Origin: Myxococcales bacterium
GTDB lineage: Bacteria; Myxococcota; Myxococcia; Myxococcales; Myxococcaceae
NCBI GenBank assembly: GCA_016191815.1
Contig: JACPVI010000001.1
Coordinates: 1 to 40,189 of the forward strand
Reading direction: 5' to 3'
DNA length: 40,189 bases
Shown: in pieces, positions 1,511-14,071 of the stretch
How the letters are laid out: each line of letters begins with the position of its first letter
Position numbering within the stretch: position 1 is the stretch's first letter
The notes under the pieces: model-generated
Told to the model about the DNA's origin: nothing
The model's input: the letters and a program-made list of their open reading frames with translations, nothing else
Database searches by the model: none
Translations under genes and position numbers: made by a program

Positions 1511-4309
1511 ATGAGCAAGAAGACCTTCATCTACGCCTTCGAGGAGGGCGACGGGAAAAACAAGATGCTGCTCGGCGGCAAGGGGGCCAACCTCTGCGAG
1601 ATGACGCAGATCGGCATCAACGTGCCTCCCGGCTTCACCATCACCACCGAGGCCTGCCTCGCCTACCTCGAGAGGAACCAGCTCCCCGAGGGCCTGATGG
1701 AGGAGGTCCGCCGCCACACGCAGCGGGTGGAGAAGAAGGTCGGCAGGGCCTTCGGCAACAAGGACAACCCGCTCTTGGTCTCGGTGCGCTCCGGCTCGGC
1801 CCTCTCCATGCCGGGGATGATGGACACCATCCTCAACCTGGGCCTCAACGAGGAGACGCTGCAAGGCCTCGTCAAGCAGACCCAAAACCCCCGCTTCGCC
1901 TACGACGCCTACCGGCGCTTCATCCAGCTCTTCGGCAAGGTGGCGCTGGGAGTCCCCGATGGGCCGTTCGACGCGGAGATGGCGGCGGTGAAGGCCAAGT
2001 ACAAGGCCAAGCAGGACGTGGACCTCAACGCCGACCACCTGAGCGAGCTGGCCTCGCGCTTCATCCAAGTGGTGGAGAAGGCCACCCAGAAGCCCTTCCC
2101 CAAGGACCCCTACCAGCAGCTCGAGGAGGCGGTGAAGGCCGTCTTCCGCTCCTGGATGGGCAGGCGCGCGGTGGACTACCGCAAGCAGTTCAAGATAACC
2201 CCGGAGAAGGCCAACGGCACCGCCGCGAACATCGTGGCGATGGTGTTCGGGAACATGGGCAACGACTCCGGCACCGGAGTCGGCTTCACCCGCGACCCCG
2301 GCACCGGGGAGAACGTCCTCTACGGAGACTACCTGGTGAACGCCCAGGGCGAGGACGTGGTGGCGGGCATCCGCACTCCCAAGCATCTCGCCGCGATGGC
2401 GCAAGAGATGCCTGCCATTCACAAGCAACTGCTCGAGCTGCGCCAGAAGCTCGAGTCCCACTACAGAGAGGTGCAGGACTTCGAGTTCACCATCGAGAAA
2501 GGCGTCCTCTACTGCCTGCAGACGCGCAACGGGAAGATGAACGCCCAGGCGATGGTGCGCTCCTCGGTGGAGATGCACCAGCAGGGGCTCATCTCCAAGG
2601 AGCAGGCGCTCCTGCGGATCGACCCCATGCTGCTCGAGCAGCTGCTGGTGCCCTCCTTGCCGCCGGGCTTCAAGGGCAAGCCCTTGGCCACCGGGCTCTC
2701 GGCCTCGCCGGGCGCCGCCTCGGGGAAGGTGGTCTTCGACGCCGACACCGCCGAGGAGCGGGGCAAGCTGGGGGAGAAGTTGATCCTGGTCCGCGAGGAG
2801 ACCAAGCCCGAGGACATCCACGGCTTCTTCGCGGCGCGGGGCATCCTCACCAGCCGGGGCGGGAAGACTTCTCACGCGGCGGTGGTGGCGCGCGGCATGG
2901 GCAAGCCCTGCGTCTCGGGGGCGGAGTCCATCCACGTGGACGTGCGCGAGAAGCTGGCCCGGGTGGGCGACACCGTGCTCCGCGAGGGCGACACCATCAC
3001 CATCGACGGCTCCACCGGTCACGTCTACGCGGGGGAGGTGCCCACCGTCGAGCCGGAGTTCTCCTCCGAGCTGCAGACTCTGCTCAGCGGGGCCGACGAG
3101 GTGGCCGCGATCCGGGTGAGGGCGAACGCGGACACTCCGGGCTCGGCCTCCAAGGCGCGCAAGTACGGCGCCCGCGGCATCGGCCTGTGCCGCACCGAGC
3201 GGATGTTCAACGACGTGGACCGGCTGCCGATCGTCCAGGAGATGATCCTCGCCGAGAGCAAGGAGCAAAGGCAGGCGGCGCTGGATCGGCTCTTGCCCAT
3301 CCAGCGGAACGACTTCGTCGGCATCTTCAAGGCGATGGAGGGGCTGCCGGTGACGGTGCGGCTACTCGATCCGCCGATCCATGAGTTCCTCCCCACCGCC
3401 CAGCAGCTCGAGACCGAGCTGGGCCAGCTCCGCGAGCTGCGGAGCTCGGTGAAGGGGATGGCCGAGCTGCCGGAGAGCCTGAGGCTCGTGGACCCCGAGC
3501 TGTTGAGGGAGAACGGCGGCAGCCTGGAGAAGCTGAGGGCCACCCTCCAGTCCTACGTGGAGTCGGGGAAGCTGGACGCGCTCATCACAAGGCGCGAAGC
3601 GATGCTCAAGAAGGTGCGGGCGCTCTTCGAGGTGAACCCGATGCTCGGGCACCGGGGAGTGCGGCTGGGCATCACCTACCCGGAGATCTACGCCATGCAG
3701 GCGCGGGCCATCCTGGAAGCCGCCGCGGACTGCCAGAAGCAGGGCGTGCAGGTCTTGCCGGAGATCATGGTCCCCCAGGTGTGCGCCGCGCTGGAGCTGA
3801 TGAAGGTGAAGGCGATGGTCCAGGAGGCCCACGCCCAGGTGGAGCGCGAGCGCGGGGTGAAGGTGAGCTACCTGTTCGGGACGATGATCGAGGTGGTGCG
3901 GGCCTGCATGCGCGCATCGTCGATCGCCGAGGTGGCGGAGTTCTTCTCCTTCGGCACCAACGACCTGACCCAGGCCACCTACTCGTTCAGCCGCGAGGAC
4001 GCGGAGAACAAGTTCCTCCCCGCCTACATCGAGCTGGGCATCCTGAAGAACAACCCGTTCGAAATCCTCGACGAGGAAGGGGTGGGCCGGCTGATGGCGA
4101 TGGCGGTGACGTGGGGCCGGGAGAAGAACCCCACGCTCAAGGTGGGGATCTGCGGCGAGCACGGCGGCCAGCCGGAGGCCATCCGTTTCTGCTGCCAGGT
4201 GGGGCTGGACTACGTGTCCTGCTCCGGGCCCAGGGTCCCGGTGGCCCGCCTGGCGGCCGCCCACGCCAAGCTCCAGGAAAAGGATCGGCCAGCGGTCACC
4301 TTCGACTGA
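1511..4309 (+). CDS. ppdK: Pyruvate, phosphate dikinase
   Basis: This 932-residue protein matches bacterial PPDK along its length. It interconverts pyruvate, ATP and phosphate with PEP, AMP and pyrophosphate in the cytoplasm. The N-terminal ATP-grasp part includes LLGGKGANLCEMTQIGINVP (about 20-39). The swivelling phosphohistidine domain carries GGKTSHAAVVARG with the catalytic histidine at residue 455. The C-terminal PEP/pyruvate TIM barrel includes RMF and GICGEHGG with the conserved Cys. It appears to be a single-gene unit: the AHSA1 fragment ends 129 nt upstream, where a TTGACT (1470-1475) could be a -35 box. With the PTS cluster 20 kb away it gives this locus two PEP-handling systems, but they share no visible regulation. 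No defects seen. Confidence 0.97.
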   Translation: MSKKTFIYAFEEGDGKNKMLLGGKGANLCEMTQIGINVPPGFTITTEACLAYLERNQLPEGLMEEVRRHTQRVEKKVGRAFGNKDNPLLVSVRSGSALSMPGMMDTILNLGLNEETLQGLVKQTQNPRFAYDAYRRFIQLFGKVALGVPDGPFDAEMAAVKAKYKAKQDVDLNADHLSELASRFIQVVEKATQKPFPKDPYQQLEEAVKAVFRSWMGRRAVDYRKQFKITPEKANGTAANIVAMVFGNMGNDSGTGVGFTRDPGTGENVLYGDYLVNAQGEDVVAGIRTPKHLAAMAQEMPAIHKQLLELRQKLESHYREVQDFEFTIEKGVLYCLQTRNGKMNAQAMVRSSVEMHQQGLISKEQALLRIDPMLLEQLLVPSLPPGFKGKPLATGLSASPGAASGKVVFDADTAEERGKLGEKLILVREETKPEDIHGFFAARGILTSRGGKTSHAAVVARGMGKPCVSGAESIHVDVREKLARVGDTVLREGDTITIDGSTGHVYAGEVPTVEPEFSSELQTLLSGADEVAAIRVRANADTPGSASKARKYGARGIGLCRTERMFNDVDRLPIVQEMILAESKEQRQAALDRLLPIQRNDFVGIFKAMEGLPVTVRLLDPPIHEFLPTAQQLETELGQLRELRSSVKGMAELPESLRLVDPELLRENGGSLEKLRATLQSYVESGKLDALITRREAMLKKVRALFEVNPMLGHRGVRLGITYPEIYAMQARAILEAAADCQKQGVQVLPEIMVPQVCAALELMKVKAMVQEAHAQVERERGVKVSYLFGTMIEVVRACMRASSIAEVAEFFSFGTNDLTQATYSFSREDAENKFLPAYIELGILKNNPFEILDEEGVGRLMAMAVTWGREKNPTLKVGICGEHGGQPEAIRFCCQVGLDYVSCSGPRVPVARLAAAHAKLQEKDRPAVTFD

Positions 4310-4387
4310 GTCACTGCGCCGAGGCGTGCTTGGCACCAGCGCGGCTGTGGAGAGACGCGGGGGAGTCGGCCTGACGGACTTCGTGTC

Positions 4388-4412
4388 CCGGCGCGCTGGC
4401 GGAGCGCGCCGG
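4388..4412 (+). terminator. GC-rich hairpin after ppdK
   Basis: A perfect 10-bp stem, CCGGCGCGCT/AGCGCGCCGG, with a GGCGG loop lies 78 nt after the ppdK stop and before the lipase gene. No U-tract follows, so it is either a weak intrinsic terminator or an RNA-stabilising structure. Confidence 0.4.
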
Positions 4413-4499
4413 TAAGAAGGGCCAGAAGAGCGGACCGGTCCCTGGTAGGGTCCGCCAGTTCTTCGAAGCGCCCGTCCACTTCGACTTGGGAGGTCCAAG

Positions 4500-5735
4500 G
4501 TGCCCAGCGCAATACAGAGGGTGTTCTTCCCCGTCGCGTTCACCGCCGCATTCGGCTCCGTGGCGTCCGAGGACATGGCGACCCAGATCGAGCACGCGAA
4601 GGTCGAGCGCCTCGCCAAGGACCACATCTACGCCTACGGGAAGGCGGGCGGGATGAGCGGGGACGACGCCACCCGCGCGGCGATGAAGAAAGATGGCTTC
4701 GACGTCAAGGCCTCCATCGAAGACTCGGACCTCAAGCTCCAGAAAGGAGAGGTGGTGGAGAAGGAGGCGGGGTTCGCCGCGATGGTGGTCGAACCCCCCG
4801 GCAACACGGTTTACCTCGTCTTCCGCGGGACCGATGACGCGACCGACGTCGGGGACTACCTTTCGCGAAAGGCAGACAAGGAAGGCCAGGGCGGCTACGA
4901 GGTCACCGTGGGCCGTGAGCAGTACGCGAAGTTCAAGAAGCAGCTCGATGCCGTCGTCGAGCGATACCGCAACACCGGCCGGAAGATCGTCGTCAGCGGC
5001 CACAGCCTCGGCGGCGCGCTGGCGCAGCGCTTCGTCGCCGATCACCCCGAGTTCGTGGACGAGATGATCCTCTTCCAGTCGCCCGGCGTGGAGAAGGAGC
5101 TGGTGGACAAGATGGACGCCCATGTGGCCAAGGGAGGCAAGTTCCCCAAGTCCAGGCTCTACGTCTCCGAGTGGGACAAGGTGCCGGACTTCGGCCATGG
5201 CCACATCGGGAACCCGGAGGTGGTGGTGGGCTCCTTCACGGGCCTGAACCAAAGGAGCGTGGTTGCCTCGCACCGCGTCTTCTTCAACCAGAAGGACAAG
5301 GCGAGGAGCCCCTACGGCGACAAGGCCGAGTACTCCTCGATCGCGAAGCTCTCCCACCGAAAGACGGTGAGCTACCTGGCGTACTCCCAGCACCGGAAGG
5401 TCGGCGGCGACCTGACGGGCCTGTCGGACGGAGAGCTGGTCGGGGTCGCGGGCACCTGGCAATCCAGCTGGGGACCGGTGACGCTCTCCCACCCCGCCCT
5501 TCAAGGCAATAGGCCGGCGCCGATCTCCGGCTCCTTCCAGCAGCCGAACGACGGGACCGGGACCATCACCGGCGGCTCGTGGAACCCGGCCACCGGGAGG
5601 CTGGAGTTCGAGTACTACCAGCCGTGGAACAAGATGCCTGGCAAGGCGACGTTGACCCTCTCGAAGGACGGCAAACAGTTGACCGGTGGCTACAAGCAAC
5701 CGAACGCCAGCGGCAGCTGGACCATGACCCGCTAG
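4500..5735 (+). CDS. Class-3-type alpha/beta-hydrolase lipase with beta-rich C-terminal domain
   Basis: The 411-residue protein contains a lipase-3-like core: VYLVFRGTDDATD, where the oxyanion region is expected, and IVVSGHSLGGALAQRF with the nucleophile in GHSLGG. It probably hydrolyses an ester or lipid. The N-terminus (RVFFPVAFTAAFGSVAS) could be a weak signal peptide. The GTG start at 4500 follows GGGAGG by 6 nt. The last 90 residues or so form a separate Gly/Trp-rich unit with repeated short strands (GTWQSSWG, ISGSFQQP, GTITGGSW, LTGGYKQP, SGSWTMTR), resembling a small antiparallel barrel. It may mediate binding or anchoring. The gene is convergent with the permease gene, only 9 nt away. 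Substrate unknown. Confidence 0.75.
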   Translation: MPSAIQRVFFPVAFTAAFGSVASEDMATQIEHAKVERLAKDHIYAYGKAGGMSGDDATRAAMKKDGFDVKASIEDSDLKLQKGEVVEKEAGFAAMVVEPPGNTVYLVFRGTDDATDVGDYLSRKADKEGQGGYEVTVGREQYAKFKKQLDAVVERYRNTGRKIVVSGHSLGGALAQRFVADHPEFVDEMILFQSPGVEKELVDKMDAHVAKGGKFPKSRLYVSEWDKVPDFGHGHIGNPEVVVGSFTGLNQRSVVASHRVFFNQKDKARSPYGDKAEYSSIAKLSHRKTVSYLAYSQHRKVGGDLTGLSDGELVGVAGTWQSSWGPVTLSHPALQGNRPAPISGSFQQPNDGTGTITGGSWNPATGRLEFEYYQPWNKMPGKATLTLSKDGKQLTGGYKQPNASGSWTMTR

Positions 5736-5744
5736 AGCGCCGCC

Positions 5745-7082
5745 TCAAAAGAGCGAGCCGGCCACCAGCAACAGCGCGTAGACGATCGCCACCGTCTGGA
5801 TCAGCGCGAAGCTCAACAACCCCACCGGCAAGAAGTCGAAGAAGCCGAAGCGCACCGGGGCGCCCAAAGGGTCGCGGAGATCCGCCCGCTCGGTGAGGAT
5901 CTGCGTCATCGGACCCGAGGTGGCGGCGGTGAGGAAGAGCGAGCTTCCCGCGCACACCGAGAGGGCCAGGCCGACGTACACCGCGGTGGGCGAGAGGCGG
6001 GCGGCGAGCGAGGCGGCCACGTCGAGCAGGGCCGCCATGCTCGGCCCGGCGGAGAAGAGCCCGGTCAGGATTCCCGCCAAGAGCAGGAACAGCACCAACT
6101 GAATCACCGACGGCACCGGGAGCGAGGTGAGCCCTCGGCCGATGGAGTCGAACACTCCGCTCTGGCGCACCGCGGACACCATCACGAATAGCGAGAGGAG
6201 GAACAGCACCGCCTCCACGTCCATCTTGGCCCGGATGACACGCTCCCCGGTCCTCGGCAAGACCGCCAGGGCGAGGCCGACGCCCAGCCAGCCGATCAGC
6301 TCCGGCCCCACTCCGCTCGAGGGAGGTACCCACACCCACGCCCCCAGCATCGCCAACAGGCACGCCGCGGTGGGCAGGAACAGCCGCCAGCTCAGCCGCA
6401 CCTTGCGGTAGAGCGCGCCCATCACCGCCAGAGAGAGCCGGGTGGCGACTGGCTCGCGTACCAGCCCCCGCTCGGGGCGCACCCGCACCATCACCACCAC
6501 GAGCAGCGCGGCGAGCGCCACCACCGTCGGCGGCGCCGCCGCCCAGAGGTAGCCCTGGAAGGTCATCACCCGCCGGCCGAGGAGCAGGATGGCCGGGAAG
6601 TCGCCGATCGGCGTGGCGGCGCCGCCCAGGTTGCACGCCACCAGGAGCACCCCCAGCGTCCAGGCCAAGTACCTCTGCCCCACTCCGAGCAGCTTGAGCA
6701 GGATGAGGAGGATCGGCAGCACCAGCAGCAACGCGGTGAGGTTGTTCACCAGGCCGGAGACCGCGTACATCGCCACCGCGAACAGCACCAGCACCCGCCT
6801 GGGCTCGCCCCGGCTCCAGCGAGTCACCGCCGCGGCGATGACGCCGAAGACGCGGGTGGCGACCAACAGCTCGGCGAGAAAGCCGAGGCCCACCAGGAGG
6901 ATCATCACGTCCCAGGGGACGTCGGCGAAGATGGCCCGGGTGGTGCCCACTCCGGTGAGGGCGGCCACCGCGCAGGAGAGGGCAGCGCCTCCGAGGGTGA
7001 GCAACAGCCGGTAGGAGGGCAACAGCGCCTGGGCCACCACGGTCAAGGCCAGGATGGAGGCCAACAGCAGCGGCGGTCCCAT
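5745..7082 (-). CDS. Ion-transporter-superfamily permease (ArsB/NhaD/CitM-like)
   Basis: An inner-membrane protein of 445 residues if it starts at the ATG at 7082, whose codon overlaps the previous stop (TGATG). An upstream extension in the same frame reads through the preceding gene and is rejected. About 11-12 hydrophobic segments are visible in two halves, each with a Gly/Asn-rich re-entrant-like stretch (GLVNNLTALLLVLP; CNLGGAATPIGDFPAI; AGPSMAALLD; CAGSSLFLTAATSGPM). The pattern of VNN and GG.ATPIGD resembles Na+/H+ antiporters and dicarboxylate or anion transporters of this superfamily. Substrate cannot be read from sequence. It is the last gene of the radical SAM operon, suggesting transport of a substrate, product or counter-ion. 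Confidence 0.8.
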   Translation of the reverse strand: MGPPLLLASILALTVVAQALLPSYRLLLTLGGAALSCAVAALTGVGTTRAIFADVPWDVMILLVGLGFLAELLVATRVFGVIAAAVTRWSRGEPRRVLVLFAVAMYAVSGLVNNLTALLLVLPILLILLKLLGVGQRYLAWTLGVLLVACNLGGAATPIGDFPAILLLGRRVMTFQGYLWAAAPPTVVALAALLVVVMVRVRPERGLVREPVATRLSLAVMGALYRKVRLSWRLFLPTAACLLAMLGAWVWVPPSSGVGPELIGWLGVGLALAVLPRTGERVIRAKMDVEAVLFLLSLFVMVSAVRQSGVFDSIGRGLTSLPVPSVIQLVLFLLLAGILTGLFSAGPSMAALLDVAASLAARLSPTAVYVGLALSVCAGSSLFLTAATSGPMTQILTERADLRDPLGAPVRFGFFDFLPVGLLSFALIQTVAIVYALLLVAGSLF

Positions 7083-7723
7083 CAGGCCCGCACCAGGTGG
7101 GAAAAGTCGGAGGCGGGCGCTTCCGAGAGCCAGCGAGGATAGAGGTACATCACGCTGCCCAAGACGTCCCACCCGACGATGGAACGGAATTGGGTGCGCA
7201 CGTCCGCCCCCATCACCCGGAGCCAGGCGGGGTCGACCCAGGTGCTCTCACCGCGGGTGCCGTAGAGGAAGGTGAGCAGCGCGCTGCGCCGGCCGGCGAG
7301 GCGGTGCAGGGAAGACAGCTCCACGGTCTCCAACCGCCGCTCGTGGTTGGCGACCACCCGCTCCCAGTCCACCGGGAAGGAGCTGTGGGCGAGCAGGGTG
7401 GCGCGGGTCTGGCCGAGCTTGGGCAACAGCGCGTCGAGGAACATCGCCTCGATTCCCACCACCAGGAGCCGGCTGGCTCCCTCGCAGGCGGCGAGGACCG
7501 AATCGGGCCCCACCTTTGGCTCGCGGCTGCCTTCCAGCCAGCGCCCCGCCACCGCGTCCAGCACCGGATAGGCGCGGCCGAGGAGGTCGCGCAGCTCCGA
7601 GACCAACGGCTCGCCGCCCTCGGCCGCCACCTCGCGCACGAAAAGCCAGGCGGCGCTGCACATGCCCAGCTCGCCCGCGGCCACGTGGAAGGCGGAGGCC
7701 ACCGCGGGGCCGAGCCGGCTCAA
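7082..7723 (-). CDS. Unrecognised 213-residue protein of the radical SAM operon
   Basis: I do not recognise this family. The start is taken as TTG at 7723, overlapping the previous stop as TTGA, with GGAGGAGG just upstream; longer in-frame starts would read through the preceding gene. The first half is helical (VASAFHVAAGELGMCSAAWLF, LVSELRDLLGRAYPVLDAVAGRWL). The middle has a Rossmann-like strand-helix (ASRLLVVGIEAMFLDALLPKL) followed by RATLLAHSSFPVDWERV and LHRLAGRRSALLTFLYG. The C-terminus is Trp/Tyr-rich. No signal peptide or membrane segment is seen, so it is probably cytoplasmic. The stop overlaps the permease start by one nucleotide, implying coordinated synthesis. Confidence 0.6.
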   Translation of the reverse strand: MSRLGPAVASAFHVAAGELGMCSAAWLFVREVAAEGGEPLVSELRDLLGRAYPVLDAVAGRWLEGSREPKVGPDSVLAACEGASRLLVVGIEAMFLDALLPKLGQTRATLLAHSSFPVDWERVVANHERRLETVELSSLHRLAGRRSALLTFLYGTRGESTWVDPAWLRVMGADVRTQFRSIVGWDVLGSVMYLYPRWLSEAPASDFSHLVRA

Positions 7724-8196
7724 GGCGCCCCTCCTCCGGAGCGCTCGAGCAGCGCGGAGATGAGGCAGAGCATCGCGGCGTTGGCCAACGAGTGCTGGGG
7801 CGGCCCATCGGTGAGGCAGTCGATCATCGCCTCCTGGGCGGCGGAGCCGGCGGGGGCGAGCCGCTCGAGCACCTTTCTCGGGAAGGAGAGCGGGTAGAAG
7901 CCGTCCTCTCCCACGTCGATGTGGGGCGGCAGGCGCATGGGCACTGGCACCGACGGCCCTTGGCTCTCCGGGGAAGCTTTGGCCGCGTCCAGGAGCTGGC
8001 CGAGCAGCGAGAGGAGCACGAAGTTGGCCCCCCGGTGGTGCGCCGGCCCCTCGTCCAGCACGCAGCGGAGGACGAAGGCGCGGTCCGCGGCCTCGGGGAC
8101 CCATCGAGCGAGCAGCTTGTCGATGCGTTCCCGGTCGATGAAGGAGGCGATGGCCGAGGACGGCAAGTGGCGGCGCGGAGGAGGAGGCTGCGCCAT
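7720..8196 (-). CDS. Internally duplicated helical protein with two GPxH..AN repeats
   Basis: I do not recognise this 158-residue protein, but it contains two copies of one unit. The first is about 44-75 (VLRCVLDEGPAHHRGANFVL continuing LSLLGQLLDAA) and the second about 120-151 (MIDCLTDGPPQHSLANAAML continuing CLISALLER). The shared pattern is D-(E)-G-P-x-x-H-x-x-A-N followed by a Leu-rich helix. Between them lies a Pro-rich stretch (PVPMRLPPHIDVGEDGFYPL). It is probably a cytoplasmic all-helical protein; the paired His residues could be a ligand or metal site, which is inference. The ATG at 8196 lies 7 nt after the upstream stop, and the stop overlaps the next start. Confidence 0.65.
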   Translation of the reverse strand: MAQPPPPRRHLPSSAIASFIDRERIDKLLARWVPEAADRAFVLRCVLDEGPAHHRGANFVLLSLLGQLLDAAKASPESQGPSVPVPMRLPPHIDVGEDGFYPLSFPRKVLERLAPAGSAAQEAMIDCLTDGPPQHSLANAAMLCLISALLERSGGGAP

Positions 8197-8203
8197 CTGG
8201 CCT

Positions 8204-8938
8204 CTAGGCCACCTCGAGGTTGAAGGCGTCGAAGGCCAGGCCCTCGTCGCCGTAGTCCACCACCAGCTCCACCTGGTAGAGGCCGGGCTCGGAAGGGAGC
8301 CGCCAGAGCACGCGGTCCCCGTCGCGGGACAGCTCGCCGGCGGTGGCCGCCCACTCCATCTTGCGCGAGCCCTGGAAGGCGGTGCGCGCTTCGAGCACCA
8401 CCTCCTGGCCCCGGCGCTGCACCAGGGCGATGGTCGCCTGGTGGGGGACGCCCAGCGGCAAGCCCTCGCCGCGCATCGCCACCTGCACCGTGTTGCCGCT
8501 CAAGGTGAAGCTGAAGGTCCGGCGGAAGGTGCAGCTCGAGCCGCGCGCGTCCCCCAGGGTGCCTTCGGCGGTGAAGGAGCCACTCGCCGCGCCGCCGTCG
8601 GCCGCCCCCCCATCCGAGGTCGGCAGGTCCAAGGTGACCACCAGGTTTCCGGAGGAGGTGTCTACCGTGCGCAGGGTGGCGCCCTGCACGTTGGTGACGG
8701 TGGCGCCGGCGAGGACTTGAGCGCTGAACTGTTGGTCGAAGATGGTGATGGTGAGCGTGTTGCCGCTAAAAATACCGTTCGCGCCCAAGCTCTGGCCGCC
8801 ATCCACCTTCCCGCACTCCAGGGGTGGCGGCGCTGGGTCCACGGCGCCGACGCAAAGGCAATTGGTGAGGCCGGCGCTCGCCACCGCGAGGCTCACTCCT
8901 CCGGCCAGCTTCTTCGAGACGTCCTTGATGATTCCCAT
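8204..8938 (-). CDS. Exported-looking Ig-like protein of the radical SAM operon
   Basis: The 244-residue product starts MGIIKDVSKKLAGGVSLAVA, a basic stretch followed by a short hydrophobic segment, then Cys27 and Cys29 in TNCLCVG. The LTNC is a poor lipobox because Asn precedes Cys, so lipidation is doubtful. Residues about 50-160 are Thr/Val/Gly-rich beta strands interrupted by a low-complexity SDGGAADGGAASG linker. The end (LPSEPGLYQVELVVDYGDEG and on to LEVA) looks like an Ig/PKD-type beta sandwich. Four Cys residues are visible. The ATG at 8938 is 3 nt after the radical SAM stop, so it is strictly co-translated. It may be the substrate of the enzyme or a surface partner; neither is shown. 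Confidence 0.6.
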   Translation of the reverse strand: MGIIKDVSKKLAGGVSLAVASAGLTNCLCVGAVDPAPPPLECGKVDGGQSLGANGIFSGNTLTITIFDQQFSAQVLAGATVTNVQGATLRTVDTSSGNLVVTLDLPTSDGGAADGGAASGSFTAEGTLGDARGSSCTFRRTFSFTLSGNTVQVAMRGEGLPLGVPHQATIALVQRRGQEVVLEARTAFQGSRKMEWAATAGELSRDGDRVLWRLPSEPGLYQVELVVDYGDEGLAFDAFNLEVA

Positions 8939-8941
8939 GGT

Positions 8942-10630
8942 TCAACCCCCTCGGTTCTCCGGCGGCCCCGGCAACCGCTCGGTCAGCGACTGTACACCGA
9001 CGGCGCTCCCCGTCGCTGCCTCGGGCGCCAACCCGTTTCCCAGCGGCTCGGCGGAAGAGAGGCCCGCCGAGCTGCGAATTCGGGCCTCCATCTCGCGGCG
9101 GAGCGCCTTCACCTCGGAGAGGAGCCGGAGGTCGGCGCGGGCGATCTCCCGGGCCAAGGCGAGGGTGAAGGCCTTGCTGGCCCCCGCGTCGCGCAGGTCC
9201 GCTTCCCGGACGAAGGAGAGAGCCTCGCGCATTCTCCGCACGCTGTCCTCCCCGGCGGCGCGGGAGAAGGCCGCCATCCTCCGGTGCCATTCCGGGTCCC
9301 AGCAGTCGGGGTAGAAGCGTCTCACCACCTCGTTGTCGAAGCGGACGCCCATGTTCAGGTTGGCGATGCCGTCGGCCTTGAAGTTGCGGGGGGCGAAGGC
9401 GGTGGAGGCGATGCGGAAGAGCAGCTCCACCCTCTCGTCACGCATCTGGTAGCTCCAGGCCAGGTAGTCGCCCTGGAGCCGGCCCTCCGACTCGAGCATC
9501 GACTTGAGAGGAGTGCCGGCGTACACCTCGGCGCGGCAGAAGTTGAAGGGGACCTCGGCGAACTCCTCCAGGAAGTCGAGGTTCTTCTCCACGCCTCCCA
9601 AGGTCGCCTCCGGGTCGAACAGGAGCAGGTTGAAGGAGGCGTAGACGTCCAGCTCGCGCAACAGCCGCATCGCCCGGCGGTTGTCCTCGGGGCTGATCCG
9701 CCGGTTGAGGCTGACGATGCCCTCCTCGGAGTTGGTCTCGATGCCCACGTAGGCGCGAATCATCCCCATCGACTTGAGCAGGCCGAACAGCTCCGGCTGG
9801 GCGTCGTCGGGCCGGCACTTGATCACCAGGGCCAGGTCCTCGAGGCCCTCTCGGCGCAGCAATTCCTGGAGCCGGCGGTAGCGCTGGAGGTTCTTCTCCG
9901 GGCTGGGCACGAAGAAGTTGTCGTCGTGGAAGATGAACAGTCTGATGCCGCGGCGCTCGCGTTCCTCCTTCATCTCGCGGGCGATGCTCTCGGGCGAGCG
10001 CATGCGGTAGCGGGCGCCCTGGGCTGCCAGGGAGTAGGCGTGGATGCAGCAGAAGGAGCAGTCGGCGTAGCAGCCGCGGCTCCCGAGGATGGGCGCGCAC
10101 CTCACCCCGAGGATGTCGAGCGGCGTGGTGCGGCGGACGGGCATGGGCAGCCGGTCCAGCTCTCCCAGCGCGCGGCGGGGGCCGACCGACACCCCGTCGA
10201 CGAAGCGCACTACCAGCCCGGGCAGCGCCGGGACCTCCTTCCCCTCGCGGAGCACCGCGCACAGCTCGCGCAGGGTGTCCTCGCCCTCGTGGCGCGCCAC
10301 CGAGTCCACCGCCGGGAAGTCCCGCAGGATGGCCTCGTACTCGAAGGTGGCGAAGTGCCCGCCGGCGCAGACGTGGCCGCGGTATCCGCGCTCGCGAAGC
10401 TCGCCGGCGAGGCCCAACAGCTCCTTGGCCCGATGCTGGAAGGGCATCGAGATGCCGACCGCCAGCGGCGCCGAGGCGATCACCGCATCGGCGGCGATCC
10501 TCCGCTGATCAGGCCCATTGAAGGGCACCAGCACCGCCTCGAAGCCGTCGGCCTCGAGGGCGGCGGCGAGGTAGCGCAAGGAAAGGTTCTCCTCGAACTC
10601 GGCGCCCACGAGCGCCACGAGCGGCCGCAT
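8942..10630 (-). CDS. B12-binding-domain radical SAM enzyme
   Basis: The 562-residue protein has an N-terminal cobalamin-binding Rossmann domain (1-130: LVALVGAEFEENLSLRYLAA, VGISMPFQHRAKEL, VCAGGHFAT, HEGEDTLREL). A radical SAM barrel follows with the [4Fe-4S] motif GCYADCSFC (Cys187, Cys191, Cys194), then GIRLFIFHDDNFF and IRAYVGIETNSEEG typical of this class. The final 80 residues or so are helical and specific to this protein. Such enzymes do methylations or other radical chemistry on peptides, lipids or natural products. The ATG at 10630 has GAGGTGAGGC upstream. It leads a five-gene operon with 3 nt, 7 nt and overlapping junctions. The class is secure; the reaction is unknown. Confidence 0.9.
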   Translation of the reverse strand: MRPLVALVGAEFEENLSLRYLAAALEADGFEAVLVPFNGPDQRRIAADAVIASAPLAVGISMPFQHRAKELLGLAGELRERGYRGHVCAGGHFATFEYEAILRDFPAVDSVARHEGEDTLRELCAVLREGKEVPALPGLVVRFVDGVSVGPRRALGELDRLPMPVRRTTPLDILGVRCAPILGSRGCYADCSFCCIHAYSLAAQGARYRMRSPESIAREMKEERERRGIRLFIFHDDNFFVPSPEKNLQRYRRLQELLRREGLEDLALVIKCRPDDAQPELFGLLKSMGMIRAYVGIETNSEEGIVSLNRRISPEDNRRAMRLLRELDVYASFNLLLFDPEATLGGVEKNLDFLEEFAEVPFNFCRAEVYAGTPLKSMLESEGRLQGDYLAWSYQMRDERVELLFRIASTAFAPRNFKADGIANLNMGVRFDNEVVRRFYPDCWDPEWHRRMAAFSRAAGEDSVRRMREALSFVREADLRDAGASKAFTLALAREIARADLRLLSEVKALRREMEARIRSSAGLSSAEPLGNGLAPEAATGSAVGVQSLTERLPGPPENRGG

Positions 10631-11191: not shown

Positions 11192-14071
11192 GTGCGGAAA
11201 GGGCGAGCTTCCCTGCTCGAGCCCGCTGAGGCCCAGGCGGCGAAGGCCCGTCTCCCGGTGGGGCTCCGCTTCTGGCTGGAGGCCGAGCAGGGGCGAGTCA
11301 CGCGCGAGGTGGACGAGCGGCTGATCGACAAAGGCGACCTGGAAGCGGTCGACCCGCGCTTTCTTCCGGAGGGGGGAAGGGTCTTCCGCCTGCCGAGCCA
11401 CTGGGTGGACGTCCGAGAGCTGCACCTCACCGAGCTGGGGCTCTTGCGAGCTGGGCTGAGGCGCCGGCTTCTTCGGCGGACGAGTGCCGGGAAGCAGGTG
11501 CTCTTCCTCACGCATCCTCTCGCGCTGGCGAGGAGCCGGTTTCTCCAGGGAGCCGAGCCCGGCCCACCCCTGTACGCCGCAGCGACCGCGTCCACTCGCA
11601 CCGTGCTGGTCTGGAGCGAGAAGGGCGGGCCTCCTCCTTTCTTCGCCAAGCTGTCGATCGCCGGGGAATTCGCCGGCGCGAGCCGCGAGGTGTCCGCCAC
11701 CGAGGCGGCGACCTGCGTGGGAGTCTCGCGGCTACTTGGGGAAGTCCAGCGCGGCCGGGGCCTTGTGCTGCTCTTCGAGACGATGTCGGCGGTGCCCCGC
11801 GGTGAGGAGACGGGAGGCTTCATCGTCCGCGAGCTGCCGCCTTCCGTGCTCCGGGGCGGCTCGGTGCTGGTTCCGTGGTTCGCGCTCACCAACGCCTCGC
11901 GCGACGGCGGGGAGCCGATGCTCTGGGCGATGGCGCGCCGGTCGGGAGCGGCGCTTCTCCGCTTCGTGGGGGAGAGGCTCTTCCGGCCGTTCTTGCGCGC
12001 CTTCCTCGAGTCGGCGCTCTCCGAGGGCTGGGTGGCCGAGGTGCACGCGCAAAACCTCTTGGTGGAGCTGGATGCCCGCTTGGGGCCCACCGGCCGCTTT
12101 TTTCTCCGCGACGCGGAGGGCATCTACGCGGACCTCGCCTTCATCGAGCGGATCCACCCCTCCGGCGCGAAGGCGGTCCGTTCGCTCCCGTTCGTCCGAA
12201 ACCTCGCCGACGATTACGAGGAGCTCGAGCTGACGCGAGGGCTCGAGGCGAGCCTCCATGGGTACTTCCTCGGAGGGCCCATCTATCGCCTCGAGCGCTC
12301 CGCCCGCCCCCCGCTCGGGCGAGGCGCCTTCCGCCGCCTCTTCTTCGAGGAGTTGAAGGCCCGGATGCGGGCCGCCTCTGGCCGGGAAGTCCCGGGAGCG
12401 GCGCTGACTCCGGCGGGCTTTGCGGAATGGATTGAAGAAGAGCGGTTCCGCCGCTTGAAGAGGCCGCGGCTGCCAGGGGGGCTTTCGCGGTGGATTGAGC
12501 GCGAGCAGTCCACCAACCGGATGGAGCGCGATCCGCTGCTGTTCGCGCCGGTGGACTTCTCCGGGCTTCCCGAGAGGTTCCACCCTGCGAGCCGCCCGGT
12601 GTGGCGGCTCGAGTACCTGGCAATCCCGCGACGCCAGCTCGAGCTCACCGCCGGTCGCCTCCCGCGCGCGATTCGCCGGGGACTCTTCTTCCGCCGCGGC
12701 GGACGCGAGCACGTGCGCTTCTTTCTGCATCCGCTGATGAGGCAGCACCACCTCCTCGACGTGGCCGAGCACGGGCTGGAGCGCGGCACCTTCTGGGCCA
12801 CGCCCACCGCCTCGCTGCGCACCGTCGCCGTCTGGGACGCGGCCGATCCTTCCGTCCGCTTCGGGCTCAAGCTTTCGGTGGACGCGGAGATCCACGGAAT
12901 CAACCGGGTGGTGAAGGCGAGCAAGCTCGCGCGCGCCACCGCGGTGAGCGAGGCGTTCGACGCCATCCCAGGCCGGACTCGCCGCCGCCATGGCTTCGAG
13001 GTCTTGCGCGAGCCGCTGGCGCTGCGCACCGAGGATAAGGCCTTCGGCACCATCGTCCGCGAGCTTGCTCCTAGGATGGACCGGCTCGTGCCGGGTTTCT
13101 CGCTCTTCGCGGCGCCCGAGCGCGGGCGAGCTCCCCTGGCCATCGCGCTTGCCGGGCGCCGGGCCGGCGCGGAGGGGCTCGTCCGGTGGCTCGAGGCAAG
13201 GGTGCTCGGGCCGCTCGCGCGCGCCTGCGCGTACCTCATGTTCCAGGAAGGCCTCCTGGGCGACCTCCACCAGCAAAACGTGCTCTTCGAGCAGACGGGG
13301 AGTGGCGCGCTCTCGGGCAAGCTGGTGCTCAGGGACTTGGACTCCTTCAAGACAGACCTGGACCTGCGCTTCCGCAGAGGAAGGACGCTCCGGCCGTACG
13401 CCCGGCATCCGGGGCCGTCCGACGACTTGAAGCTGGACGAGGCGTTCCGGCACTACGACGAGGCCTGGGGGCGTGAGCTGCGGGCGGAGTGGGCCTTCCT
13501 CTGCCGGAGGCTCTTCGAGCAGTGGGCCTCGGTGCTCGGCGGACGCCGGGCGGTGCGCCGAGCCCTCGCCGGCGGCAGGCTATGGGCGGCGCTGGACCGG
13601 ACCTTCCTCGAGTCGGCCACGGAGCATCTGGGCGAGGAAGTCGTGCTGGCGGAGCTACGCCGAGTGCTGCAGGCGCGAAAAAACGCCGAGGCGCGCAGGC
13701 TCCACCGCTTGCTCGATACCCCCGAGGGCGCAAGTCTCGGCGCACGGGAGTTGTTGCGGAGAATCCCCTCGCCGCTGCTGGTGGACCCACGGACGCCGTC
13801 CCTGCCGCTCTACTCGGCAAACGCGATGGTACGCGCGTGGAAGCGCGTAGAGCCGGCTCCCTGCCGCGCGAGAGGCCCGCCAAGCTCGCGCCAGACGGAG
13901 TTGCGCCGCCGGTTTCTCACCCTTGCCTCGGAGGGGCGCTCGATTTTCGGCGGGCAGCCGCCCCCGGGGGCTCGCTTCACCGCGGCTGATGGAGTGCTGG
14001 TGGCGTGGGGAGCAGACGGCCGGCCGGCCGACTACGCGTTGAGTCAGACGAAGCCCTTGGCGCGAAGGTAG
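11192..14071 (+). CDS. Double-length IucA/IucC-like (NIS synthetase-type) protein
   Basis: This 959-residue protein consists of two related halves. Half one has HPLALARS (108-115), TASTRTVLVW (132-141), FAKLS (151-155), EVHAQNLL (283-290) and RDAEGIY (306-312). Half two has HPLMRQHH (513-520), TASLRTVAVW (539-548), LKLS (559-562), DLHQQNVL (691-698) and RDLDSF (714-719). The order HP..., S.RT, K.S, H.QN, RD is that of IucA/IucC siderophore synthetases, which adenylate a carboxylate and condense it with an amine or alcohol. The family call is inference from motif order, and no other siderophore gene is nearby. The GTG start at 11192 has a weak ribosome site, so the true start may be slightly downstream. 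The last 100 residues or so are basic and poorly conserved-looking. Confidence 0.6.
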   Translation: MRKGRASLLEPAEAQAAKARLPVGLRFWLEAEQGRVTREVDERLIDKGDLEAVDPRFLPEGGRVFRLPSHWVDVRELHLTELGLLRAGLRRRLLRRTSAGKQVLFLTHPLALARSRFLQGAEPGPPLYAAATASTRTVLVWSEKGGPPPFFAKLSIAGEFAGASREVSATEAATCVGVSRLLGEVQRGRGLVLLFETMSAVPRGEETGGFIVRELPPSVLRGGSVLVPWFALTNASRDGGEPMLWAMARRSGAALLRFVGERLFRPFLRAFLESALSEGWVAEVHAQNLLVELDARLGPTGRFFLRDAEGIYADLAFIERIHPSGAKAVRSLPFVRNLADDYEELELTRGLEASLHGYFLGGPIYRLERSARPPLGRGAFRRLFFEELKARMRAASGREVPGAALTPAGFAEWIEEERFRRLKRPRLPGGLSRWIEREQSTNRMERDPLLFAPVDFSGLPERFHPASRPVWRLEYLAIPRRQLELTAGRLPRAIRRGLFFRRGGREHVRFFLHPLMRQHHLLDVAEHGLERGTFWATPTASLRTVAVWDAADPSVRFGLKLSVDAEIHGINRVVKASKLARATAVSEAFDAIPGRTRRRHGFEVLREPLALRTEDKAFGTIVRELAPRMDRLVPGFSLFAAPERGRAPLAIALAGRRAGAEGLVRWLEARVLGPLARACAYLMFQEGLLGDLHQQNVLFEQTGSGALSGKLVLRDLDSFKTDLDLRFRRGRTLRPYARHPGPSDDLKLDEAFRHYDEAWGRELRAEWAFLCRRLFEQWASVLGGRRAVRRALAGGRLWAALDRTFLESATEHLGEEVVLAELRRVLQARKNAEARRLHRLLDTPEGASLGARELLRRIPSPLLVDPRTPSLPLYSANAMVRAWKRVEPAPCRARGPPSSRQTELRRRFLTLASEGRSIFGGQPPPGARFTAADGVLVAWGADGRPADYALSQTKPLARR

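Follow-up and report, generated by a model that had tools for sequence, protein, structure and literature searches.

The stretch of DNA analyzed here, referred to as the window, comprises 40,189 nucleotides (nt) of a Myxococcales bacterium genome (GCA_016191815.1, contig JACPVI010000001.1, positions 1 to 40,189) and carries at 5745-10630 a run of five tightly packed open reading frames (ORFs), all on the minus strand. The run begins with the gene for a cobalamin (B12)-dependent radical S-adenosylmethionine (SAM) enzyme, P0001, followed by that of an exported protein of 244 amino acids (aa), P0002. Judged by gene order in related genomes, the five genes are two conserved modules placed side by side, module A (the enzyme and the 244-aa protein) and module B (a 158-aa protein, a 213-aa protein, and a permease), and it is module A, a candidate pair of modifying enzyme and exported substrate, that forms the main subject of this report. 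The features are as follows.

8942..10630, minus strand: P0001, module A enzyme, cobalamin-binding radical SAM protein of 562 aa (Pfam B12-binding and Radical_SAM above cut-off)
10262..10594, minus strand: B12-binding domain, P0001 residues 13-123 (PF02310, E 9.5e-15, 54.9 bits, cut-off 32.1)
9608..10081, minus strand: radical SAM core, P0001 residues 184-341 (PF04055, E 2.5e-16, 60.7 bits, cut-off 29.5)
10049..10072, minus strand: [4Fe-4S] motif CxxxCxxC, P0001 residues 187-194 (C187, C191, and C194 invariant across the aligned homologues)
8204..8938, minus strand: P0002, module A partner, exported 244-aa protein and proposed substrate (orthologues adjoin the orthologous enzyme in L051, L052, L053, and L110)
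8858..8908, minus strand: hydrophobic signal segment of P0002, ending in the lipobox-like L-T-N-C27 (from sequence; C27 invariant)
8813..8839, minus strand: proposed target motif DPAPPPLEC, P0002 residues 34-42 (motif class of the split partners)
8210..8791, minus strand: two predicted β-sandwich, immunoglobulin (Ig)-like domains, P0002 residues ~50-243 (AlphaFold2, mean predicted local distance difference test (pLDDT) 71.6, and Foldseek)
7720..8196, minus strand: module B 158-aa protein with two EGPxHHxxN-type half-repeats (alignment; found in 12 of 195 genomes)
7082..7723, minus strand: P0004, module B 213-aa protein with a TTG start (adjoins the 158-aa gene in 12 of 12 genomes)
5745..7082, minus strand: P0005, module B CitMHS-type permease, MamN/ArsB-like, 445 aa (PF03600; third gene in every module B copy)

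Counted from the gene of the 562-aa enzyme, the junctions are 3 nt, 7 nt, a TTGA overlap, and a TGATG overlap, and these, together with the coordinates of the five ORFs, confirm what an earlier note on this DNA had given. The domain matches and the CxxxCxxC motif of P0001 bear out the cobalamin radical SAM enzyme proposed there, and the exported-looking Ig-like protein with four cysteines corresponds to P0002, with its hydrophobic N-terminal stretch, its cysteines at positions 27, 29, 42, and 136, its β-sandwich model, and its Ig-like Foldseek matches. None of the three middle proteins (244, 158, and 213 aa), including the 213-aa protein described earlier as unrecognised, has a match above cut-off in Pfam or NCBIfam. 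We also agree that neither a leader protease nor a classic small precursor of a ribosomally synthesized and post-translationally modified peptide (RiPP) is present.

An enzyme family with fused or separate exported partners

P0001 has the layout of a class B (cobalamin-dependent) radical SAM enzyme, in which an N-terminal B12-binding domain precedes the core with its CxxxCxxC motif, and its assignment to a family is based on an alignment of 69 rows and a tree of 83 rows. A profile built from eight homologues, run on a collection with one genome per species, returned 80 enzyme loci from at least seven named bacterial phyla. The hosts belong to the Myxococcota, Acidobacteriota, Gemmatimonadota, Planctomycetota, Verrucomicrobiota, Armatimonadota, Bdellovibrionota, Desulfuromonadia, and a few others, most of the genomes being metagenome-assembled, which means that some of the phylum assignments may be binning errors. 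Hyalangium versicolor and Geomonas oryzae are cultured carriers. The model of a fused homologue (L061, core pLDDT 91-99) matches the folds of OxsB, TsrM, MgmA, CysS, and TokK.

When the five loci ended by a contig edge are set aside, 75 remain, and in 71 of these a short acidic-proline motif occurs together with a hydrophobic, lipobox-like segment. In 42 loci both lie in the enzyme ORF itself, which continues, uninterrupted by a stop codon, into a hydrophobic segment, in most cases with a cysteine at its end, and from there into a proline-rich tail. In another 26 loci an exported protein with matching features is encoded by the next gene, often through an ATGA-style overlap, and in the last three the partner lies just upstream of the enzyme (L071 and L079, and L123, where a lipobox and EMAPTP are found in the upstream ORF). 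The window pair is a further next-gene case. L071 (~3780-4990) holds two tandem partner genes ahead of one enzyme, with the motifs DPMPTP/DPMPPP and DMMPEP, and would thus be a case of one enzyme with two putative substrates. Neighbor-gene clustering over the 80 loci identified the partner as the only gene family clearly tied to the enzyme, and no conserved third gene beside the enzyme was found in it. The pairing and the fusion are, like the motif with its recurrence and the division into two modules, read directly from the sequences themselves.

The domains carried behind the motif vary from one tail or partner to another and include TonB_C, CarboxypepD_reg, ASH/HYDIN-like Ig, and PEGA, which suggests that the putatively modified stretch is a membrane-near linker serving different cargo domains. 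The acidobacterial fused forms L101 and L105, in which CarboxypepD_reg and TonB_C follow the motif, unite a radical SAM enzyme and a TonB-like energy transducer end in a single polypeptide. Many split partners have a long N-terminal region before the signal, of an RxR..HL..L type in 16 of 27 and an LMPEVLP type in 7 of 27; the LMPEVLP type occurs in 0 of 43 fused forms, and the clade of the window pair has no long N-region. This region looks like a docking leader, for which there would be a need only where the substrate is not part of the enzyme polypeptide.

In the enzyme tree P0001 groups with L051 (Vicinamibacteria, 66% identity), with L052 and L053 (both Gemmatimonadota), and with L110, and in each of these loci the next gene encodes an orthologue of P0002, at 40-44% identity (26% in L110). 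(The position and long branch of L145 in this tree are disregarded, a wrong-strand sequence having been entered; its fused tail was read correctly elsewhere.) The signal of P0002 ends in L-T-N-C and those of the orthologues in L-S-A-C, L-S-S-C, or L-T-A-C, giving L-[ST]-[ANS]-C, in which Asn at position -1 is unusual for a lipobox. According to AlphaFold2, the first 40 residues of P0002, which hold the signal, LTNC, and DPAPPPLEC, are disordered, and the remainder forms two β-sandwich domains. No paralogue of P0002 is encoded elsewhere in the genome, and a sequence search of the PDB with P0002 gave no match.

A second family member is present in the window genome (L143, contig C3, ~53700-55945), in this case a fused one with a tail of GVAEAAPPP repeats, and 5 of the 6 genomic sites encoding VAEA[AP]PP fall in that tail.

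The acidic-proline motif and its proposed modification

The motif is short, acidic-proline in character, and often repeated, as in DPLPPP, EMAPPP, and GVAEAAPPP; other variants are DPMPAP, DMMPEP, HMCEMAPPP, SEMAP, HERAP, and VVDPLPxDAG, each tail repeating its own, and similar repeats are found in fused forms that were not part of the scan (L143, L145, and L147). DPxP is present in 25 of 26 split partners (window included), against a mean of 3.0 and a maximum of 7 after shuffling, and the stricter D[PM]xPxP in 22 of 26 (shuffled 0.43, maximum 3). Of the 27 split partners, 23 have a cysteine within the 6 residues after the motif (1.0 on average and at most 5 after shuffling). The fused tails, 21 of which contain E[MAR][AV]PxP, hold 49 copies of it (0.5 when shuffled, maximum 4). 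A single tail may hold as many as 8 copies of its motif in an otherwise divergent sequence. Mapped onto the tree of the enzyme domain, the motif class changes 4 times over 72 labelled rows, compared with at least 19 times in 300 shuffles.

In the model that we consider rather more probable than its competitors taken together, P0001 and P0002 are a dedicated modifying enzyme and its substrate, the acidic-proline motif being modified, most likely by C-methylation, prior to export. The cytosolic enzyme would bind the flexible N-terminal segment of the as yet unexported partner in an extended form, for which the proline-rich stretch behind the signal segment, naturally extended, would be accessible at that stage, and would install the modification at the motif (DPAPPPLEC in this case), most likely as a radical C-methylation. 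Export of the partner would follow and, for most members of the family, probably also lipidation at the cysteine closing the hydrophobic segment, which would leave the modified proline-rich stretch on the outer side of the membrane, next to the anchor. Roughly half of the enzymes would bear their own substrate as a C-terminal fusion, often with several copies of the motif, and for the others the substrate would come from a separate gene. There is precedent for such chemistry, as MgmA, a B12-dependent radical SAM enzyme, methylates a carbon of a glutamine residue in its protein substrate, and an extended linear peptide can be accommodated in its cleft (PMC11796369), and methylation is the commonest reaction of the B12 radical SAM class (PMC11659888). 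The suggestion of the earlier note that the enzyme modifies the 244-aa protein is well supported, because the pair recurs in Acidobacteria (Vicinamibacteria) and Gemmatimonadota and an exported protein with the motif, adjacent or fused, accompanies almost every homologous enzyme; the extension of that idea to all five genes as one system was not supported.

A more tentative reading, possible in our judgment and short of an even chance, is that the family represents a widespread, previously undescribed class of self-modifying membrane proteins, in which an internal lipoprotein-type signal connects the enzyme to a substrate of its own with several motif copies, perhaps to be cut by signal peptidase II, and that the window contains the two-gene version of this arrangement.

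It has to be noted that several observations weigh against the proposed modification. We infer, rather than observe, that the motif is the modified site, as well as the chemistry, its timing before export, and its biological role. AlphaFold2 did not place the fused tail of L061 in the active site and left it disordered, with pLDDT mostly below 50. The motif counts are descriptive, the motif having been defined on the same loci in which it was counted, and the motif is loose over the family, its last position not being proline in L053, L084, L093, and L147. Two loci (L092 and L102) have no recognisable motif-bearing partner, L117 has a variant motif, and L091 a variant with no signal segment; a strict lipobox pattern is found in 40 of the 69 hydrophobic segments and is missing from the remainder. 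HpnR, which methylates a lipid, is the closest curated family by profile, with 96 bits against a cut-off of 650. Finally, linked inheritance alone would make the motif class track the enzyme tree; it explains part of that agreement, though not the persistence of the motif while the rest of the partner becomes unrelated domains.

In L091 (Geomonas oryzae relative), the next gene (6833-7549) encodes FRPPPEPAH, exactly or nearly so, four times and has no signal; it is possibly part of a cytosolic sister system.

The strongest alternative, which we nevertheless regard as unlikely, is that the enzyme acts on a lipid or small molecule, as HpnR and BchE do, with the exported partner or tail serving as an anchor, a product binder, or a transmembrane carrier. 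HpnR and BchE are the strongest NCBIfam profiles for P0001, and the ladder-lipid and HpnJ enzymes score as well; moreover, a fused tail would hold the enzyme at the membrane, and the tails carry varied periplasmic domains such as TonB_C and CarboxypepD_reg. All of these curated families score far under their cut-offs, however, and the enzyme has no conserved biosynthetic neighbors other than its partner. Acting on a small molecule would also leave unexplained why as many as 8 copies of a 6-residue motif are found amid a diverging tail and why split partners conserve long N-regions before the membrane segment.

Less probable still, and in our view improbable, is that the motif is an enzyme-independent sorting or spacer element of exported lipoproteins, with the pairing due to co-regulation. 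Pro/Asp-rich linkers behind lipoboxes do occur in these bacteria, and one other lipoprotein-like ORF of the window genome has DPLPFP behind a lipobox. Against this, the genome as a whole shows no enrichment of VDPxPxP, with 17 sites as compared with 45 in the reversed control, and the motif stands behind a lipobox only in P0002 and one other ORF; such a role gives no reason for the fusion to the enzyme, and the type of motif tracks the enzyme. The longer V-x-D-P-x-P-P-P, with 2 sites, is likewise below its reversed control.

A genome-wide set of substrates acted on in trans was considered and rejected on these counts, leaving one other lipoprotein-like ORF as a candidate. An α/β-hydrolase-like lipoprotein encoded elsewhere in the window genome (L185:4053-5294, minus strand, contig C70) has LLGCGPPAEVDPLPFPP, with the same Cys-to-motif spacing as P0002, and may be a second in-trans substrate or a product of chance.

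Module B and the boundary between the modules

The five-gene run is read as two modules because gene order in relatives separates the trio from the enzyme pair. With the 158-aa protein as the query against 60 relatives, five other genomes were found, all with the 158-aa, 213-aa, and permease genes in identical order, and in none of them does a radical SAM gene or a 244-aa gene adjoin the trio. Among 195 genomes of the phylum, the trio occurs in 12, its order constant in all, and the enzyme family in 14; the two adjoin each other only in the window genome. Both modules are present in 2 of the 195 (the window genome and one other, where they lie on different contigs), with ~0.9 expected if they were independent. 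In the scan of named genomes, 0 of the 80 enzyme loci contained genes 3-5. The three genes at 5745-8196 thus form, on the evidence of gene order, a separate permease module that happens to sit downstream of the pair.

That all five genes serve one modification-and-export pathway, as the very tight junctions of the window genome might suggest, is highly improbable and was rejected on gene order and co-occurrence, genes 3-5 being a unit of their own in 12 of 12 genomes, beside the enzyme only here, and the co-occurrence of 2 genomes standing against ~0.9 expected. The check for a five-gene order conserved across myxobacteria, on which the earlier note had staked the five-gene set, found that order to be unique to the window genome, and the stoichiometric coupling considered "clear from sequence" was overstated, the junctions fitting co-transcription. 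Since other enzymes from the same myxobacterial family fall in other clades, the pair probably reached this genome by horizontal transfer, landing upstream of a resident trio.

Within the trio, the duplication reported for the 158-aa protein is real: an alignment shows two conserved half-repeats, EGPxHHRGxN and DGPPQHxxAN, with conserved Cys, Glu/Asp, Gly-Pro, His, and Asn residues, and the cysteines, histidines, and acidic residues suggest binding of a metal or ligand. A sequence search of the PDB with P0004 gave no match. P0005, previously placed among ion-superfamily permeases, is a CitMHS permease (PF03600, 103.2 bits, cut-off 31.9). It resembles the CitMHS/MamN/ArsB permeases in passing the CitMHS cut-off and differs from them in being always preceded by two proteins of no known family and in a MamN score (122 bits) that is below the cut-off of 500.

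Flanking the run are, upstream, a 959-aa protein at 11192-14071 made of two IucA/IucC-FhuF-like halves (a tandem duplication) and, at 4500-5735 and convergent with the permease gene, a Lipase/Mbeg1-like α/β hydrolase gene.

Known systems and significance

Among characterized enzymes, MgmA, the glutamine C-methyltransferase of methyl-coenzyme M reductase (TIGR04014, PDB 9ccb), is the top PDB sequence match of P0001 (E 6.7e-8) and one of the top fold matches of the L061 model. Both are B12 radical SAM enzymes, and MgmA acts on a protein and has an extended-peptide cleft (PMC11796369). MgmA differs in modifying a large cytosolic archaeal enzyme and in being neither paired with nor fused to an exported motif-repeat protein, and P0001 scores 39.9 bits against TIGR04014, below the cut-off of 360. 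In layout the closest parallel is to the borosins, where the substrate is fused to the enzyme C-terminus (OphMA type) or separate (SonM/SonA, type IV split) and one polypeptide is modified repeatedly (PMC8429565). The 42 fused, 26 adjacent downstream, and 3 upstream partners reproduce that layout, with the partner as the presumed substrate, and the enzyme-partner system is most likely the radical SAM counterpart of the fused and split borosins. Borosin enzymes, in contrast, are not radical SAM proteins and methylate backbone nitrogen, and a borosin-type α-N-methyltransferase domain was not found in P0001, which has only the B12-binding and Radical_SAM domains. Here, furthermore, a hydrophobic export segment links enzyme and partner, and what is modified would be a membrane-anchored protein as opposed to a small natural product.

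The hopanoid C-3 methylase HpnR (TIGR04367) shares the B12-binding and radical SAM layout and is the best NCBIfam match of P0001 (96.1 bits, cut-off 650), differing in this distance from the cut-off and in that no conserved hopanoid genes lie near the enzyme loci. The RiPP maturation radical SAM C-methyltransferase model TIGR03975 gives 54.8 bits (cut-off 281.85), BchE is among the strongest of the further scores, and the ladder-lipid and HpnJ models also register. Identification of the enzyme as HpnR, MgmA, BchE, ApyD, or a RiPP C-methyltransferase was rejected, all scores being far under cut-off, and among the scanned enzymes and partners no NCBIfam model exceeded its cut-off except a generic choice-of-anchor domain in one tail.

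Bacteroidota contain pairs, TIGR04133/TIGR04134, in which a radical SAM gene stands beside a dedicated lipoprotein proposed as its substrate; these enzymes are not known to have a B12-binding domain, and no fusion is known for them. At E values up to 1, the two models gave no match to P0001 or P0002. Full-text literature searches, whose coverage mostly excludes subscription journals, returned no description of the enzyme-partner system. The kinds of system nearby are thus known, namely B12 radical SAM protein methyltransferases and fused or split modifying enzymes, and it is the joining of these to an internal export signal and to a repeated motif that appears to be new.

The locus shows that tightly packed genes may be two unrelated modules. 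If the proposed modification is correct, the enzymes would constitute a new radical SAM family that modifies dedicated exported proteins at a short proline-rich motif, about half of them as fusions, and they could be assayed directly on one polypeptide, by the mass shift of a named peptide, with natural motif variants at hand for studies of substrate choice. The self-modifying class, should it exist, would make the enzyme and a modified periplasmic proline-rich tail as one polypeptide. For the Myxococcota, Acidobacteria, Planctomycetes, and others that carry the family, the proposed modification would likely mean a new post-translational modification on the cell surface.

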